From Bacillota bacterium (GTDB lineage: Bacteria > Bacillota > Sulfobacillia > JACIYH01), in NCBI GenBank assembly GCA_040757085.1, contig JBFLXJ010000002.1, positions 124,001 through 188,000 of the forward strand: a stretch of DNA of 64,000 bases, read 5' to 3'. A program made the translations under genes and the position numbers. Each line of letters opens with the position of its first letter. Position 1 is the stretch's first letter. The notes below the pieces were generated by a model. The model ran no database searches. It was not told the DNA's origin and saw only the letters and a program-made list of their open reading frames with translations. Of this stretch, positions 22,731-64,000 are shown piece by piece.

Positions 22731-23996
22731 TCAACGGGGCAACACGGTCGACAGGGCACCCAGTTCGGGCTGCAGGGCCTGCTCCAGGTACAGGGCAACG
22801 TCGCCTGCCTCCACCTGCTGCAATGTCCGGTAGTAATCTTCCAGGGACAACCCGTAAAAGTGCAGGTCCGGCACCAGGTAAGCAGGGGCGTCCAGGGAGT
22901 CAAAGAATGACACAAACTGCCCCAGGGCAGCGCGCCGGCACCGCTCCAGATCGCGGTCGCTCCAGTTGCGCCGGGCTGAGAATATGCCTTCCCGCAGGCG
23001 GTCGCCCAGCCGCCCGGGATCGGGGGTGCGCCCCATAAATACGGTAAAAGCCCAGTCGCGCCCGCATGCGTAGCTGGCGGCGAAGGAATCGTCGATCAGT
23101 CCCTCCTGGTACAACTGGTGGAAGAGATCCGATCCCCTCCCCAGCACGATCTCGAGCGCCATCTCCCCCGCCACCCGCCGCCTCAGGTCGCCACCCCCGG
23201 GGAAAGCGGGGTCCCGAAATCCCAGTGCCAGCAGGGGAACGGCCACCGCCATACGCTGTTCCGCATTCCTTTCTTCCAGCTCACCGTGATCGGGGACTCC
23301 CACCCTGCGGAACCCGGGGGCGGGACCCGGCCGGCGTCCCCCCACGTGACGGTCCACGTGATCGAGGACCTGCCCCGGGTCCAGGTCACCGGCCACGTAG
23401 AGGACCAGATTTGAGGGGTGATAGAAATTGCGGTAGCACAAATCCAGGTGCTCGAAGGTAATCTCCCGGATCGACTCCAGGGACCCCGCCACGTCCTCCC
23501 GCACCGGATGCCGCCGGTAGAGAAGACGCCTGAGGTTGTGCATGACAGTGCGGTGGGGGCTGTCCAGGCCCATGCGGATTTCCTGTTCTATGATGGGCTT
23601 CTCCTTTTCCACTCCCGCCGGGGTGAAGCGAGCCTCCTGCACAAACCCCAGCAGGAGGTCAAGTGCCTCCCAGAACGCGTCAGCACAGGAGAACAGGTAG
23701 CTGGTTACCTCGTACGAAGTGTAAGCGTTGGCCGAAGCGCCCAGGCGGGCAAAGCGGTCGAGGACCGGAGAGTCGGGATCCTCGAACATCTTGTGCTCCA
23801 GGAAATGAGCCACGCCCGCGGGGACGGTGTACTTCCGCCCCTCGGCAGACACGAAGTGCAGGTCCACCGACCCGAAACCGGCGGTCAGGCTCGCGTATTT
23901 GCGCACGAACCCCGGGCGCGGCAATATGTACACGCTGAGGTCGTCTTCCCAGCGGTGGTAGACAATCCTTTCCCCCAGATCCGCCAGGGTCCTCAC
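22731..23996 (-). CDS. M16-family zinc peptidase, active partner (YmfH-like)
   Basis: 421 aa. The inverted zinc motif HFLEH (GVAHFLEHKMFED, near residue 64-76) and the distal Glu in EKPIIEQEI are present, so this is the catalytic subunit of a pitrilysin-like pair. The rest matches the two-domain M16 clamshell (RNFYHPSNLVLYVAGDLDP). It overlaps the inactive partner gene by 4 bp. Cleaves short peptides in a closed chamber; substrate unknown. Confidence 0.92.
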   Translation of the reverse strand: MRTLADLGERIVYHRWEDDLSVYILPRPGFVRKYASLTAGFGSVDLHFVSAEGRKYTVPAGVAHFLEHKMFEDPDSPVLDRFARLGASANAYTSYEVTSYLFSCADAFWEALDLLLGFVQEARFTPAGVEKEKPIIEQEIRMGLDSPHRTVMHNLRRLLYRRHPVREDVAGSLESIREITFEHLDLCYRNFYHPSNLVLYVAGDLDPGQVLDHVDRHVGGRRPGPAPGFRRVGVPDHGELEERNAEQRMAVAVPLLALGFRDPAFPGGGDLRRRVAGEMALEIVLGRGSDLFHQLYQEGLIDDSFAASYACGRDWAFTVFMGRTPDPGRLGDRLREGIFSARRNWSDRDLERCRRAALGQFVSFFDSLDAPAYLVPDLHFYGLSLEDYYRTLQQVEAGDVALYLEQALQPELGALSTVLPR

Positions 23997-25291
23997 GCCG
24001 CGGCCTCCTCTCGGGTCAAAAAGTAAACGGTATCCGGCTGCAATCCCCGGGCCACCTCCACCACCTGCTCACGGGTCACCCGGTCAACCGCGGCGACCAA
24101 TTCGCCGGGAGTGAACTCGCGTCCCACGGTGAGAGCCTCCATCATTCCCCAGGCCAGCCCCCCGGGGTCGTCGCTCCAGGTGGCGACCTCAGCCCGCAGG
24201 GAACGGTGGGTGGCCTCCCACTCCTGATCGGAGATCTCCCCCCGCTGGAGGGCACGAAGCTGTTCAAGGCAAGTATCGCGGGTTTTCTGAAACGCCCCCG
24301 GATCTACACCCGCCACCATGAGGACGATCCCCTTCACGGGGTCGAGGATGGTGTTGGCGTAATAGGCCAGGCCGGCCCTTTCCCGGACGTTCACGAACAA
24401 CCGGGAGTGGGCGTAACGCCCGAGGAGCCCGTCCAGGAACAGGAGAGCGGCAAAGAGGTCGTGGGCCATGGTCACCGTAGTGCGCAGACCCACCACCAGA
24501 CGGGCCTGGCTCACCGCCTGGTGCTCGACCACCTCCCGTACCTGCGGCCGGGCGGGCTTCACCTCCACTGGCGCCAGGGGTCGCGGGGAGCGTTCGCGGC
24601 CATGTGGTTCGGGCAGCAACCTCCTCAGCAAATCCCGCAGATCGCCTGCCGCTGCGCCCCAGTCCCCGACCGCGACCACGTCCAGTTGCCCGCCCGCCAG
24701 CACATCCCGATAAGTATTGTACAGAGCGGCCGCTTCGATCCCGTCCAGGTCCTCCTCCCGCCCCAGCGGGTGCAGGGCATATCTTTCCCCGGCGCACATC
24801 TCCTCCACACAGCGCAGGTTGGCCCAGGACGCCTTGTTGTTGAAGCGCGCCCGCAGGGCCCGCCGCAGGACCTCCCGCTCTTCCGCCACGTAATCGGAGC
24901 GGAACACCCCTCCCTCTGTCACCGGCTCCCACAGAAGCTCCGCCAGCAAGGCCAGGACGCCCTCCAGGTACCCGGAACCGCCCACGAAGCGGGGATGGGG
25001 AAAATCCAGGCTCACCCACCACACCTGCTGCTCGCCCAGCCGGTACACCCGGGCCGAGAGCCGGCAACCGTAAAGTTCCTCACAGCGGCGGGCCAGGTCC
25101 CGGGCGGTGGGAAAGGACCGGGTACCCCGGCGCAGGACAGACGGCACCAGCGCCACGCTGGTCACCGTATCTTTCTCGAGGTTGACCCGCCATCCCAGAC
25201 TGAGGGAGAGGTCCTTGAACTTGGGTGCGGGGAAGTGGTGCAGCCGCACACCGGGCCCCATTTCTTCACTGGCGAACCGTCCGACTCCCAT
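23993..25291 (-). CDS. M16-family peptidase-like protein, non-catalytic partner (YmfF-like)
   Basis: 432 aa from the ATG at 25291 (GGTGGG close upstream); the frame is open further but the extra 64 codons cross an RNA-like element and show no similarity. The zinc motif position reads VLRRGTRSFP, so HxxEH is missing, while the C-terminal half keeps the binding part. Forms the heterodimer with the active M16 protein encoded next. Such pairs occur across Firmicutes. Confidence 0.88.
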   Translation of the reverse strand: MGVGRFASEEMGPGVRLHHFPAPKFKDLSLSLGWRVNLEKDTVTSVALVPSVLRRGTRSFPTARDLARRCEELYGCRLSARVYRLGEQQVWWVSLDFPHPRFVGGSGYLEGVLALLAELLWEPVTEGGVFRSDYVAEEREVLRRALRARFNNKASWANLRCVEEMCAGERYALHPLGREEDLDGIEAAALYNTYRDVLAGGQLDVVAVGDWGAAAGDLRDLLRRLLPEPHGRERSPRPLAPVEVKPARPQVREVVEHQAVSQARLVVGLRTTVTMAHDLFAALLFLDGLLGRYAHSRLFVNVRERAGLAYYANTILDPVKGIVLMVAGVDPGAFQKTRDTCLEQLRALQRGEISDQEWEATHRSLRAEVATWSDDPGGLAWGMMEALTVGREFTPGELVAAVDRVTREQVVEVARGLQPDTVYFLTREEAAA

Positions 25292-25338
25292 CTTCCCACC
25301 GTCCCTTCCTTCCACCCAATCGCCGAAACGCCGCCTGT

Positions 25339-25455
25339 GGCACGAGGCAAACATCTCTCCCGGCGGCTTATGCCGGGGGATCGCACCTCGTGCCGGGGAA
25401 AAACCGTCGCCGGGCGGGCCGTAAGGCCTGTTGCGGGCCTGGGTGCCGCCCGCGA
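25339..25455 (-). ncRNA. Structured element homologous to the omega-RNA-like end of the IS607 relic
   Basis: In the 285-nt gap upstream of the M16 pair. The plus-strand blocks CTCCCGGCG (25357-25365) and CCGGGGGATCGCACC (25373-25387), 7 nt apart, recur identically and with identical spacing at 62344-62352 and 62360-62374; GGTGCCG with a nearby GATAG recurs 55 versus 54 nt further on. Here an outer perfect 9-bp stem (GGCACGAGG 25339-25347 with CCTCGTGCC 25386-25394) encloses a CCCGGC/GCCGGG hairpin. Either a solitary transposon end or MITE, or a cis-acting leader of the M16 gene. The rest of the gap shows no gene. Confidence 0.55.
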
Positions 25456-25576
25456 TAGACAGAACCGGAACAGCCACAAGCACACTCTCTGCCCTGGTCT
25501 GGTGCCGATTGTGTGTATGTTTTGTCTACCGTTCCCCCAAGCTTCACATCCCCGGCCGGGTCCTACCCCGCCTGGG

Positions 25577-60467: not shown

Positions 60468-62300
60468 ATGTCGGATTTGATGTCCATCCAGGCCACGGCC
60501 CAGCAGGTGGCGGAGGCGGTCTCTGCCGCCCTGGGTGTGGAAACCGAAATCGTGGATGACGAACTGACTGTGGTGGCCGGGACCGGTAAGTACCGCCAGC
60601 GCATCGGCACCAAGGAGGAAGGCGGCGACCCGTCGGCCGGGTTCCTGTACGGCCGGGTCCTGCGCACCGGGCAGTCCTTTGTGGTAGAAGACCCCGCTTC
60701 CGACCCCACCTACGACCCCCGCTCCCTCACCGGCGAAACCGAAGAGCAGGCCGAGATCTGCTGCCCCGTCGTGGTGGACGGCCGGGTGGTGGGAGTACTC
60801 GGACTTTCGGCCATGAACGCCGCCCAGCGGGAGATCCTGCTGGGGAAGCAGCGGGAGATGCTCCAGTTCCTGCACCGCATGGCCGAACTGCTGGCCAGCA
60901 AGGTCAGGGAGCACCAGGCCATCACCCGTTTGAGCATCACCTCGAGCCAGCTGGGCACCATCTTGGAGAGCATCGGGGAAGGAGTCCTGGCCATCGACGA
61001 AGGGGGATTCATATCCCACTGCAACCGCTCTGCGGAAGTCCTCATCGGGCTGCCGCGACGGGAACTGCTGGGTAGGCACCTGTCGGCCCTGTGGCCGGAT
61101 TCTCCCATGCTCACGGTGCTGGCCACGGGGCAGGGATACCGGGAACGCGAAGAGATGTACCAGCGGCCCCGGCCAGGCCACTTCCTGGTCACCGCCTTCC
61201 CCGTGCGCGTGGAGGGCGCCGTCAAGGGAGTGGTGGCCACTTTCCGGGCGTTCTCCGAGGTGCGCCGCCTCGTGCGCAGCATGACCGATACGCGCCCCGT
61301 TTGCACCTTCGCGGACATCAAGGGGACCAGTCCCGCCATCCTGCGAGTCAAGGAGCAGGCCATGCAGGTGGCGGCCAGCGACGTCACCGTCCTCATCTGC
61401 GGTGAAAGCGGCACCGGCAAGGAGATGTTTGCCCGCGCCATCCACGCCGCCAGCCCCCGGGCGGCCGGCCCGTTCGTGGTCATCAACTGCGGCGCCATCC
61501 CCGAAACCCTGCTGGAAAGCGAGCTCTTCGGCTACGAGGGCGGGGCATTTACCGGAGCGCGGCGCGAGGGCAAGCCGGGCAAGTTCGAGCTGGCCAGCGG
61601 TGGCACCATCTTCCTGGACGAGATAGGCGATATGCCCCTGCATCTGCAGGTGAAGCTCCTGCGCGTCCTGCAGGACCACGTGGTGGAACGCGTGGGCGGA
61701 ACCCGTCCCATACCCGTGGACGTGCGGGTGATCGCGGCCAGCAACCGCGACCTGGAGCAAATGATGCACGACCACGAGTTCCGCGAGGACCTCTACTTCC
61801 GCCTGAGCGTCATCCCCCTGCAGATCCCACCCCTCCGCGAGCGGCGGGAAGACATCCCCCTGCTGGCCGAGTACTTCCTGGACAACCAGCGTCACCTGGT
61901 GCCAAAGGAAGTGAGCGGCTTCAGCCGGGCCGTCCTGGAAGCCTTCCTGGCATATGACTGGCCGGGCAACGTGCGGGAACTGCAGAACACCGTGGAATAC
62001 GCCGTCCACCTGGCGAAGGGGCCCACCATCACCCTGGATAGCCTGCCGCCGCGCCTGCGCCGTCACACGACGGCGCCCGGCGGTGGTACGCTGCGCGAGC
62101 AAGTGCGCCGTTTCGAGGCCAGCCTCATCCAAGCCTGCCTGGCCCGCTACGGGTCGGGAAGCAGGGCGGTGGACCAAGCCGCCCGCGAACTGGGAATCAG
62201 CCGGGCAAGCCTCTACCGCAAACTCCGAACCACGCCACACAGCTCCCGGCGCCACGCCGGTGCACCCCCGGCACGGCAATTACCGTTCCTAGAAACGTAA
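60468..62300 (+). CDS. Sigma-54-dependent transcriptional activator (GAF-PAS-AAA-Fis)
   Basis: 610 aa from the ATG at 60468; the frame is open upstream but overlaps the reductase gene. GAF-like domain (about 10-145), PAS domain (about 160-270: ILESIGEGVLAIDEGGFISH), AAA+ domain (about 280-530) with Walker A GESGTGKE (312-319), GAFTGA (359-364), IFLDEIGDMP, and Fis-type HTH (about 565-586: AVDQAARELGISRASLYRKL). Could drive the symporter/AOR operon, whose sigma-54 promoter has no adjacent regulator, or a distant one. The 158-nt gap upstream shows no clear promoter. Confidence 0.9.
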   Translation: MSDLMSIQATAQQVAEAVSAALGVETEIVDDELTVVAGTGKYRQRIGTKEEGGDPSAGFLYGRVLRTGQSFVVEDPASDPTYDPRSLTGETEEQAEICCPVVVDGRVVGVLGLSAMNAAQREILLGKQREMLQFLHRMAELLASKVREHQAITRLSITSSQLGTILESIGEGVLAIDEGGFISHCNRSAEVLIGLPRRELLGRHLSALWPDSPMLTVLATGQGYREREEMYQRPRPGHFLVTAFPVRVEGAVKGVVATFRAFSEVRRLVRSMTDTRPVCTFADIKGTSPAILRVKEQAMQVAASDVTVLICGESGTGKEMFARAIHAASPRAAGPFVVINCGAIPETLLESELFGYEGGAFTGARREGKPGKFELASGGTIFLDEIGDMPLHLQVKLLRVLQDHVVERVGGTRPIPVDVRVIAASNRDLEQMMHDHEFREDLYFRLSVIPLQIPPLRERREDIPLLAEYFLDNQRHLVPKEVSGFSRAVLEAFLAYDWPGNVRELQNTVEYAVHLAKGPTITLDSLPPRLRRHTTAPGGGTLREQVRRFEASLIQACLARYGSGSRAVDQAARELGISRASLYRKLRTTPHSSRRHAGAPPARQLPFLET

Positions 62301-62321
62301 GCCTTGCTACGTAATCCATGC

Positions 62322-63158
62322 TTACGACGCCGGGCGAACAGTGCTCCCGGCGATTCGCTCCGGGGGATCGCACCCCGGGACCCAAGCCAGACCATCTCGC
62401 CCCGGGCCGCGCGGGCTTGCACCCGCCGGTGCCGGCGCGGATAGGGGTTCCCCCCTGCCTGGGCCTCCCTCGGAGGGACGCTGGTATAAGGCGTGCGTCT
62501 GCTTTCGCCCACGCACGCTGGGGAGAACCCGGCTCCAGTCGCTCCAGACGTGCCGCCCGCGATTCCTTGCAGGTAGCGGGCGGACGTTTCCGGACCGCAG
62601 CCGCTCCCCAAACTTCAGGCCCCGCCGGGCAATCGCCACTGCCGCTGCCCCGTGCGGCGAAAGCCCGTACCGGGCCAGAAACTTGACCTTCCCAATCACA
62701 CTCGTGTAGGCCGGATTCACCGCGATGACCTCCACGCCCTCCCGGGCCGCCCGGGACACCAGCAGGGCGTGAAAGGCGGCATACGCAAAGTGCGACAGCT
62801 TGCGGGCGTGCCGGTCCGACACTTCCCGCAGCCGCGCTTTCTTCGCCCGGAAGTCCAGCCGCTCCACCACCACTGGCTTGCCGGCCCCCCGGGCCCAGGC
62901 GACGACATCTACCACCGCATCCCCCAGGGTGGCCAGCACCTGTTCCTTCCGCCGGCCCTCCAGTCGGATGTGCAGGTCCCTGGCGGCTACCGGGTTGCCG
63001 AACCGGTCCACCTCGCCCACCGCCACCCGGTCCGCGTTCAGGTCCACCCCCAGGGCACCGGCCTGCCGGCGGGTCACCCGCTCCGCCGCCGGCCGCTCCG
63101 TGGTGGCGAAAAGGTACCAGGTGCCTGCACCCGCCACCACCGCCTTCACTGCCGACAC
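62322..63158 (-). pseudogene. tnpB: Truncated TnpB (RuvC-type RNA-guided nuclease) of IS607 type
   Basis: About 278 codons remain. The RuvC catalytic parts are visible: ALGVDLNADRVAVGEVDR (first Asp), KPVVVERLDFRAKK (Glu) and VEVIAVNPAYTSVIGKVKF with ARYGLSPHGAAAVAIARR. The wedge/REC part that normally precedes them (about 200 residues) is missing: the sequence passes directly from the tnpA tail (VSAVKAVVAG) into GTWYLFATTERPA. An internal deletion of several hundred bp is inferred. Probably inactive. Confidence 0.75.
62333..62442 (-). ncRNA. Candidate omega-RNA (reRNA) at the 3' end of tnpB
   Basis: TnpB nucleases use a guide RNA transcribed from the 3' end of tnpB and beyond. This segment is strongly structured (CCCGG-N9-CCGGG hairpin, CGCCGGG/CCCGGCG alternative) and overlaps the tnpB 3' end. 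Its blocks CTCCCGGCG (62344-62352) and CCGGGGGATCGCACC (62360-62374) and a GGTGCCG/GATAG block recur with the same spacing at 25357-25455, which shows it is an element in its own right. The guide would be read from the flank near 62332 and below. Confidence 0.5.
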
Positions 63159-63757
63159 CAGTTCCCGGGCCTTCTTGTGGCTCCAAGACCGTACAGCTTG
63201 CCCGCAAAGCTGGCCACAATCGCCAGCAGGTCATCCACCAGCTCTTCCTGTAGGGGCTTCCGGTCTTCCTGCCCTTCCACCACATGGAGGCGGACGCCGT
63301 GGCTGGCGAAGTACCGGGCCAGAAAACCGAACCCAAACCGCGTCAGCCGGTCCTCGTACGTCACCGCCACGTCGGTGATCTCGCCCCGCCTCGCCAGTTC
63401 CATGAGCCGCAAGAGGCCCTTGCGCCGGTCGGAGAGGCCGGAGGCCACGTCGGTAACCGCGATGATCCGGTCAAATCCCTGCCCGGCCATCACCGTCCGG
63501 ATGTGGGCCACCTGGCGATCCAGATCCCCCTTGGCCTTCTGCTCGTGAGAGGACACGCGCCCGTAAATGGCGAGGACCCGCTGCCGGTTTCCCTGGACCT
63601 CGCCCCGGAGGCGGCGGATCTCGGATTCCGGGACCCGCCGCTTGCCGCCCGGCGTGCGCAAGACCCGGATTTTGCCCTGCTGTTCCCAGCGGCGGATGGT
63701 GTCGGGGTGGACACCGAGGAGAGCCGCTGCCCGTTCGATGCCGTAGAGCTGGTCAAT
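63146..63757 (-). pseudogene. tnpA: IS607-type serine recombinase TnpA, frameshifted
   Basis: An N-terminal MerR-like HTH (IERAAALLGVHPDTIRRWEQ, read from codons up to 63757) and a resolvase domain with the nucleophile region VLAIYGRVSSHEQKAKGDL, ITDVAVTYEDRLTRFGF and ELVDDLLAIVASFAGKLYG. After LYG the frame leaves the family; the expected SHKKARELV continuation is in another frame from 63182, so a 1-nt indel near 63182-63187 is inferred. The HTH part has no ATG, GTG or TTG start, only an ATT at 63757. Confidence 0.75.
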
Positions 63758-63763
63758 GCTTCC

Positions 63764-63792
63764 AGTCTAGCGAACGTGAGTTTTCCTGTCAA
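63764..63792 (-). promoter_or_regulatory. Promoter of the IS607 element
   Basis: Minus strand TTGACA (63792-63787), 17-bp spacer, TAGACT (63769-63764). The start point would fall near 63757, almost at the first codon of the HTH part, so the transcript may be nearly leaderless. No Shine-Dalgarno sequence precedes the ATT. Confidence 0.45.
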
Positions 63793-63800
63793 TCAGGACA

Positions 63801-64000
63801 AATACCAATGAACACCTATGAAATGGTTAAACTGCTGACAACCCCGCCAGCGCACCCATCAGCATCCCGAGGGCGGCGGTAATGGACACCACGACCCTGG
63901 ATCATCGGGAAGTCCCGCGCCGGACGGGACAGCAGGGAATCGAAACCAGCGCGATGATGTCGATCCCGGCCTGCTCCGCGCAGCATGCGGGGTCGAAAGT
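63801..64000. other. No feature recognised at the right end
   Basis: The last 200 nt carry no convincing open frame, hairpin or promoter. A short frame on either strand might be the edge of a gene outside the window. Confidence 0.4.

Follow-up and report, generated by a model that had tools for sequence, protein, structure and literature searches.

A degenerate omega-RNA scaffold upstream of a yfmF-type peptidase gene is probably the leftover right end of an IS607-family transposon

Results and Discussion

Genetic context of the two copies

The window analyzed here is a stretch of 64,000 nt from a genome of 2.67 Mb in 34 contigs (G000). It encodes two M16 peptidase homologues on the minus strand, each recognized by an NCBIfam model: a yfmF-type gene at 23993..25291 (NF047422, 341 bits; longer open reading frame 23993-25483), with an ATG at 25291 as read from the sequence, and a yfmH-type gene at 22731..23996 (NF047421, 355 bits). 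Between yfmF and a methyltransferase gene lies copy A, a solitary and degenerate omega-RNA (right-end RNA) scaffold at 25299..25493 (covariance model match 25303-25493). Its RNA strand is the minus strand, the same as that of tnpB and the M16 genes. The 3′ boundary was set by family comparison at the terminus AGGGACGG (25299-25306, minus strand). This is followed immediately by the unique sequence TGGGAAGATGGGAGTCGGAC (25279..25298, minus strand), which covers the yfmF start and occupies the position held by the guide in intact family copies. Scans for tRNA and tmRNA returned none, and no promoter was found upstream of copy A. At 25528-25538 on the minus strand, also upstream, the sequence GGGGGAACGGT resembles the family 3′ terminus AGGAACGG and has no preceding hairpin; it reflects either chance or a second remnant.

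A second and intact scaffold, copy B, forms the right end of a decayed IS607 element. It occupies 62283..62459 on the minus strand, contains all five helices of the family, and is matched over model positions 1-180 of 180 with 171.9 bits. Standard pairs are found at 32 of 33 paired positions, copy B itself being among the 29 sequences of the model. Upstream of it on the same strand is a tnpB remnant (62589..63194; TIGR01766, 42 bits, cut-off 32) comprising the C-terminal RuvC part only; aligned with a full TnpB of 494 residues, it begins to match at residue 263, and about 260 N-terminal residues are gone. The remnant is joined to the C-terminus of tnpA, an IS607-family serine recombinase gene at 63182..63757 on the minus strand (NF033518, 156 bits, cut-off 110; open reading frame 63146-63661). 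A frameshift is present at the C-terminus of tnpA, which is fused to what remains of tnpB, its C-terminal half (62589-63760). By comparison with other elements, the whole decayed element probably extends over 62283..63841 on the minus strand, with GG/TTGTCAGCAG at its left end (the slash marks the junction) and ACGG at its right. Such ends are typical of the elements compared here and resemble those of IS607: the left junction is GG, often GGG, followed by TTG or TTC, and the right end is ACGG. In the IS607 element ISXfa1, recombination occurs at GG dinucleotides and TnpB uses a GGG motif (PMC10711439).

Homology of copy A to the tnpB-linked RNA

The first-pass annotation of this DNA had described copy A as an omega-RNA-like homologue of the segment behind tnpB, on the basis of 9-nt and 15-nt blocks separated by an identical 7-nt gap and of a GGTGCCG/GATAG block common to both places. 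All of these are present: copies A and B have in common CTCCCGGCG, a 7-nt gap and CCGGGGGATCGCACC, with GGTGCCG and GATAG or GGATAG further along. The 15-nt block CCGGGGGATCGCACC, at 25373-25387 and 62360-62374, has no other exact match in the window. The homology is also supported by R1, a covariance model built without copy A, which matches it with 57.2 bits (E 4.3e-13 in the 78.6 kb searched, and 1.5e-11 when the whole genome was searched). Because this model finds copy A, the similarity of the two copies is far above chance. The extent first given to the element, 25339-25455, was too short; the real one is about 25299-25493, with the RNA on the minus strand. The element is indeed solitary, as there is no tnpB within 2.3 kb upstream.

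An IS607-type omega-RNA family

Four copies of the RNA were found in G000, all read on the minus strand: A, B, C (contig C2, 23513-23695) and D (at the end of contig C19). Searches with blastn in 150 relatives detected the element in 20 genomes. Each of these had several copies, which frequently lay at contig ends, as is usual for repeats. With the R1 model, the family was detected in 24 of the 154 genomes searched from the class, mostly in more than one copy; names among the relatives include Thermaerobacter, Symbiobacterium, Desulfovirgula and Bacillota. R1 is based on an alignment of 29 copies, with A, C and D left out; most of the 29 are tnpB-linked, and some are partial or at contig ends. 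The alignment stops sharply at the conserved AGGAACGG, beyond which the sequences are unrelated or unique. A fixed terminus followed by unique sequence is the layout of an omega-RNA scaffold and its guide.

The 29 copies support five helices, with two-sided changes in 16 of the 33 pairs and 92.7% of alignment cells pairing. Their covariation score is 0.305, compared with 0.113 (sd 0.010) in shuffled alignments and at most 0.10 in slid-partner controls. We also tallied the surroundings of 61 copies in relatives of the class. A near-full tnpB lies directly upstream in the sense direction in 27 of them and a partial one in seven, while six are at contig ends. In the remaining 21, the 2.3 kb upstream contain no tnpB; copies without a gene are therefore common.

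A covariance model searched against related genomes had been proposed at first pass as the way to recognize an omega-RNA, and for the family both expected signs were found: compensatory changes and matches beside tnpB. The RNA lies directly 3′ of tnpB on the same strand, its structure is maintained by compensation, its boundary falls at a unique flank with a GG core, and the linked protein is a TnpB with a RuvC fold according to TIGR01766 and predicted structure matches. The family thus has the features of an IS607-type omega-RNA, a kind already known, and is itself without an Rfam match: Rfam gave no match in the window at the gathering threshold, and no relevant weak match at a relaxed threshold for copy B and three related loci. 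In intact copies, the right end would encode the omega-RNA scaffold of the neighboring TnpB nuclease, with transcription running on into the flanking DNA and the flank serving as guide. TnpB probably uses the family RNA in this way. The family has strong covariation support and no Rfam entry, and R1 is a model with which the scaffolds of a group of larger IS607 TnpBs can be searched for.

The partner proteins

The partner proteins are of the TnpB type, with a nuclease role predicted from sequence and structure models. A full-length TnpB relative passes TIGR01766 and falls under the cut-off of the guided_TnpB model NF040570. Another TnpB was modeled with AlphaFold2 (pLDDT 69, six sequences, medium confidence); its best PDB matches in Foldseek were Cas12m/Cas12f, with E values of 2e-5 to 8e-4, together with RuvC. 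When the family TnpBs were aligned and inspected by eye (L056, L057, L062, L060, L061 and window 62442-63194), the RuvC-I Asp and RuvC-II Glu were seen to be kept. At the place where one would expect the third RuvC Asp motif (DxNAA), the same alignment has GLSPHxAAAVAIARRG with its His invariant, and a zinc finger was not seen by eye in most of the proteins. The third RuvC Asp and the zinc finger are therefore not apparent in this group of TnpBs.

G000 may also carry an intact member. Contig C1 terminates in the N-terminal half of a tnpB (C1:7-582), and copy D, which is found at the terminus of C19, has an orientation that fits this half. These ends would be accounted for by one intact tnpB element spanning the C19/C1 assembly gap. 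With such a candidate in the genome, a trans-acting partner for copy A is possible.

Erosion of the fold in copy A

Most of the score of copy A comes from sequence. A sequence-only model gives 51.5 bits and structure adds 5.7 bits, compared with 38-58 bits in copy B and the copies with full-length tnpB and about 22 bits in copy C and its counterpart in the congener G001. Pairing is found at four of five scorable pairs in helix 3 (with one gap), six of seven in helix 4 and five of seven in helix 5. With non-pairing positions in all three, as well as gaps, copy A does not have the intact scaffold expected of a functional omega-RNA. The stretch 25299-25473, nearly identical to copy A in extent, folds no better than expected (z -1.56).

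This result departs from the fold described at first pass, in which a central hairpin was said to be kept within an outer stem that is “different but still pairable”. The helices of the family are different ones, helices 3-5 are broken in copy A, and the 9-bp stem specific to it, GGCACGAGG/CCTCGTGCC, is equalled in length in 56 of 400 shuffles (14%). The nested fold, with an outer stem and an inner hairpin, was accordingly rejected: in variants such as L056, L045 and L062 the two arms of helix 4 have changed in concert, and in copy A the long stem is at chance level.

Origin of copy A

We consider copy A to be, very probably, what is left of the right end of a transposon of the IS607 family, in degenerate form and now without tnpB. 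It would have arrived as an insertion that lost its tnpB or never had one, and presumably has no present function beyond forming part of the yfmF upstream region. Of the three readings offered at first pass (a transposon end, a domesticated guide-RNA scaffold and a cis-regulatory leader), a transposon end without genes fits best, and the other two are not supported by the data below.

A special case of the transposon end is conceivable, if rather doubtful: copy A may descend from a MITE-like, non-autonomous IS607 derivative that was mobilized in its short form by TnpA acting in trans. Orphan copy C provides a precedent. It is a 207-bp insertion, GG/TTGAG...ACGG/ (G000:C2:23513-23719, L002:1452-1658), and the congener G002 has an empty site for it in an otherwise aligned tetR upstream region; an orphan can thus be the product of a precise insertion. 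The frequency of copies without tnpB (21 of 61) points in the same direction, as do two well-conserved orphans in genome G003, L183 (contig C64, 162.9 bits) and L193 (C58, 152.5 bits), neither of which has a tnpB within 2.3 kb upstream; orphan scores as a whole span 31 to 163 bits. However, the C64 orphan shows no GG/TT left end by eye, and no significant left-end similarity was found upstream of copy A, where the best local alignment value was reached by 6% of shuffles. The same search with copy C gave one low value (2% of shuffles, one of 12 comparisons), located outside the left-end region. As no left end was found for copy A, its insertion boundary is seen on one side only, which tells against the main reading as well.

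A role of copy A as cis-regulatory leader of the M16 genes yfmF-yfmH is highly improbable. The position is suggestive, as copy A has the same orientation as yfmF and 7 nt separate its end from the start codon of that gene. However, G001 and G002, the two congeners that share the gene order, both lack it between the methyltransferase gene and yfmF, none of the 60 other copies among the 61 precedes yfmF, and Rfam identifies no known leader in the window. Since both congeners are without it, copy A is lineage-specific among the three genomes. Their yfmF site is not a clean empty site, because the intergenic sequence in the congeners cannot be aligned, and this tells against the reading of copy A as an insertion. 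Copy A exemplifies how the guide-scaffold right ends of transposons can be left beside genes and mistaken for regulatory leaders; otherwise it is of little weight in itself.

The most improbable reading takes copy A for a domesticated guide-RNA scaffold that works in trans with a family TnpB and is guided by the yfmF start: the scaffold homology, the recognizable terminus AGGGACGG and the other tnpB of the genome, which may be intact, would allow it, but structure adds only about 6 bits and helices 3-5 are damaged, the one perfect genome match of the 16-nt guide is its own site, the only other match has two mismatches and no preceding GGG, and match numbers do not exceed those of a reversed control. 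TldR proteins are exapted TnpB-like regulators, in which a TnpB-derived protein and a guide RNA are retained outside an active transposon. In contrast, copy A has no adjoining protein partner and is not conserved.

Relation to known systems

The arrangement of the family resembles that of ISXfa1, in which the right-end RNA (omega-RNA) lies behind an IS607 tnpB at the right end of a GG-flanked element (PMC10711439). A GGG-like left flank and a guide position that starts after a fixed terminus are further likenesses of layout (PMC10711439). The two differ in that the activity of ISXfa1 was measured (PMC10711439) and that of the present family is inferred; in addition, copy A has no tnpB and has lost most of its fold. 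RAGATH-18-derived RNAs are similar in being conserved structured RNAs downstream of IS607 tnpB that act as guide scaffolds, in systems with AG/G-rich TAMs (PMC11061315). The present family differs from these in three respects: copy B and the related copies searched against Rfam match none of its families, the TnpBs are about 490-550 aa compared with about 390 (PMC11061315), and the tnpB frame of several elements continues into the RNA region.

Solitary copies in the genus

More generally, solitary omega-RNA copies in the genus could have been kept for a function, loading a family TnpB in trans and acting on the abutting gene. We regard this as very unlikely, and copy A is not the best place to look for it. 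Better candidates are copy C and its G001 counterpart, which are at a tetR promoter and in which helices 3-5 still pair. The G001 relative (L086:2396-2539) has the same right junction as copy C, TCTTGACT, at the tetR promoter, and its left sequence differs. In both species, the copy is situated directly at the -35 region of this promoter. The two copies also differ in helix 4 by a paired change, both forms of which occur in mobile copies as well.
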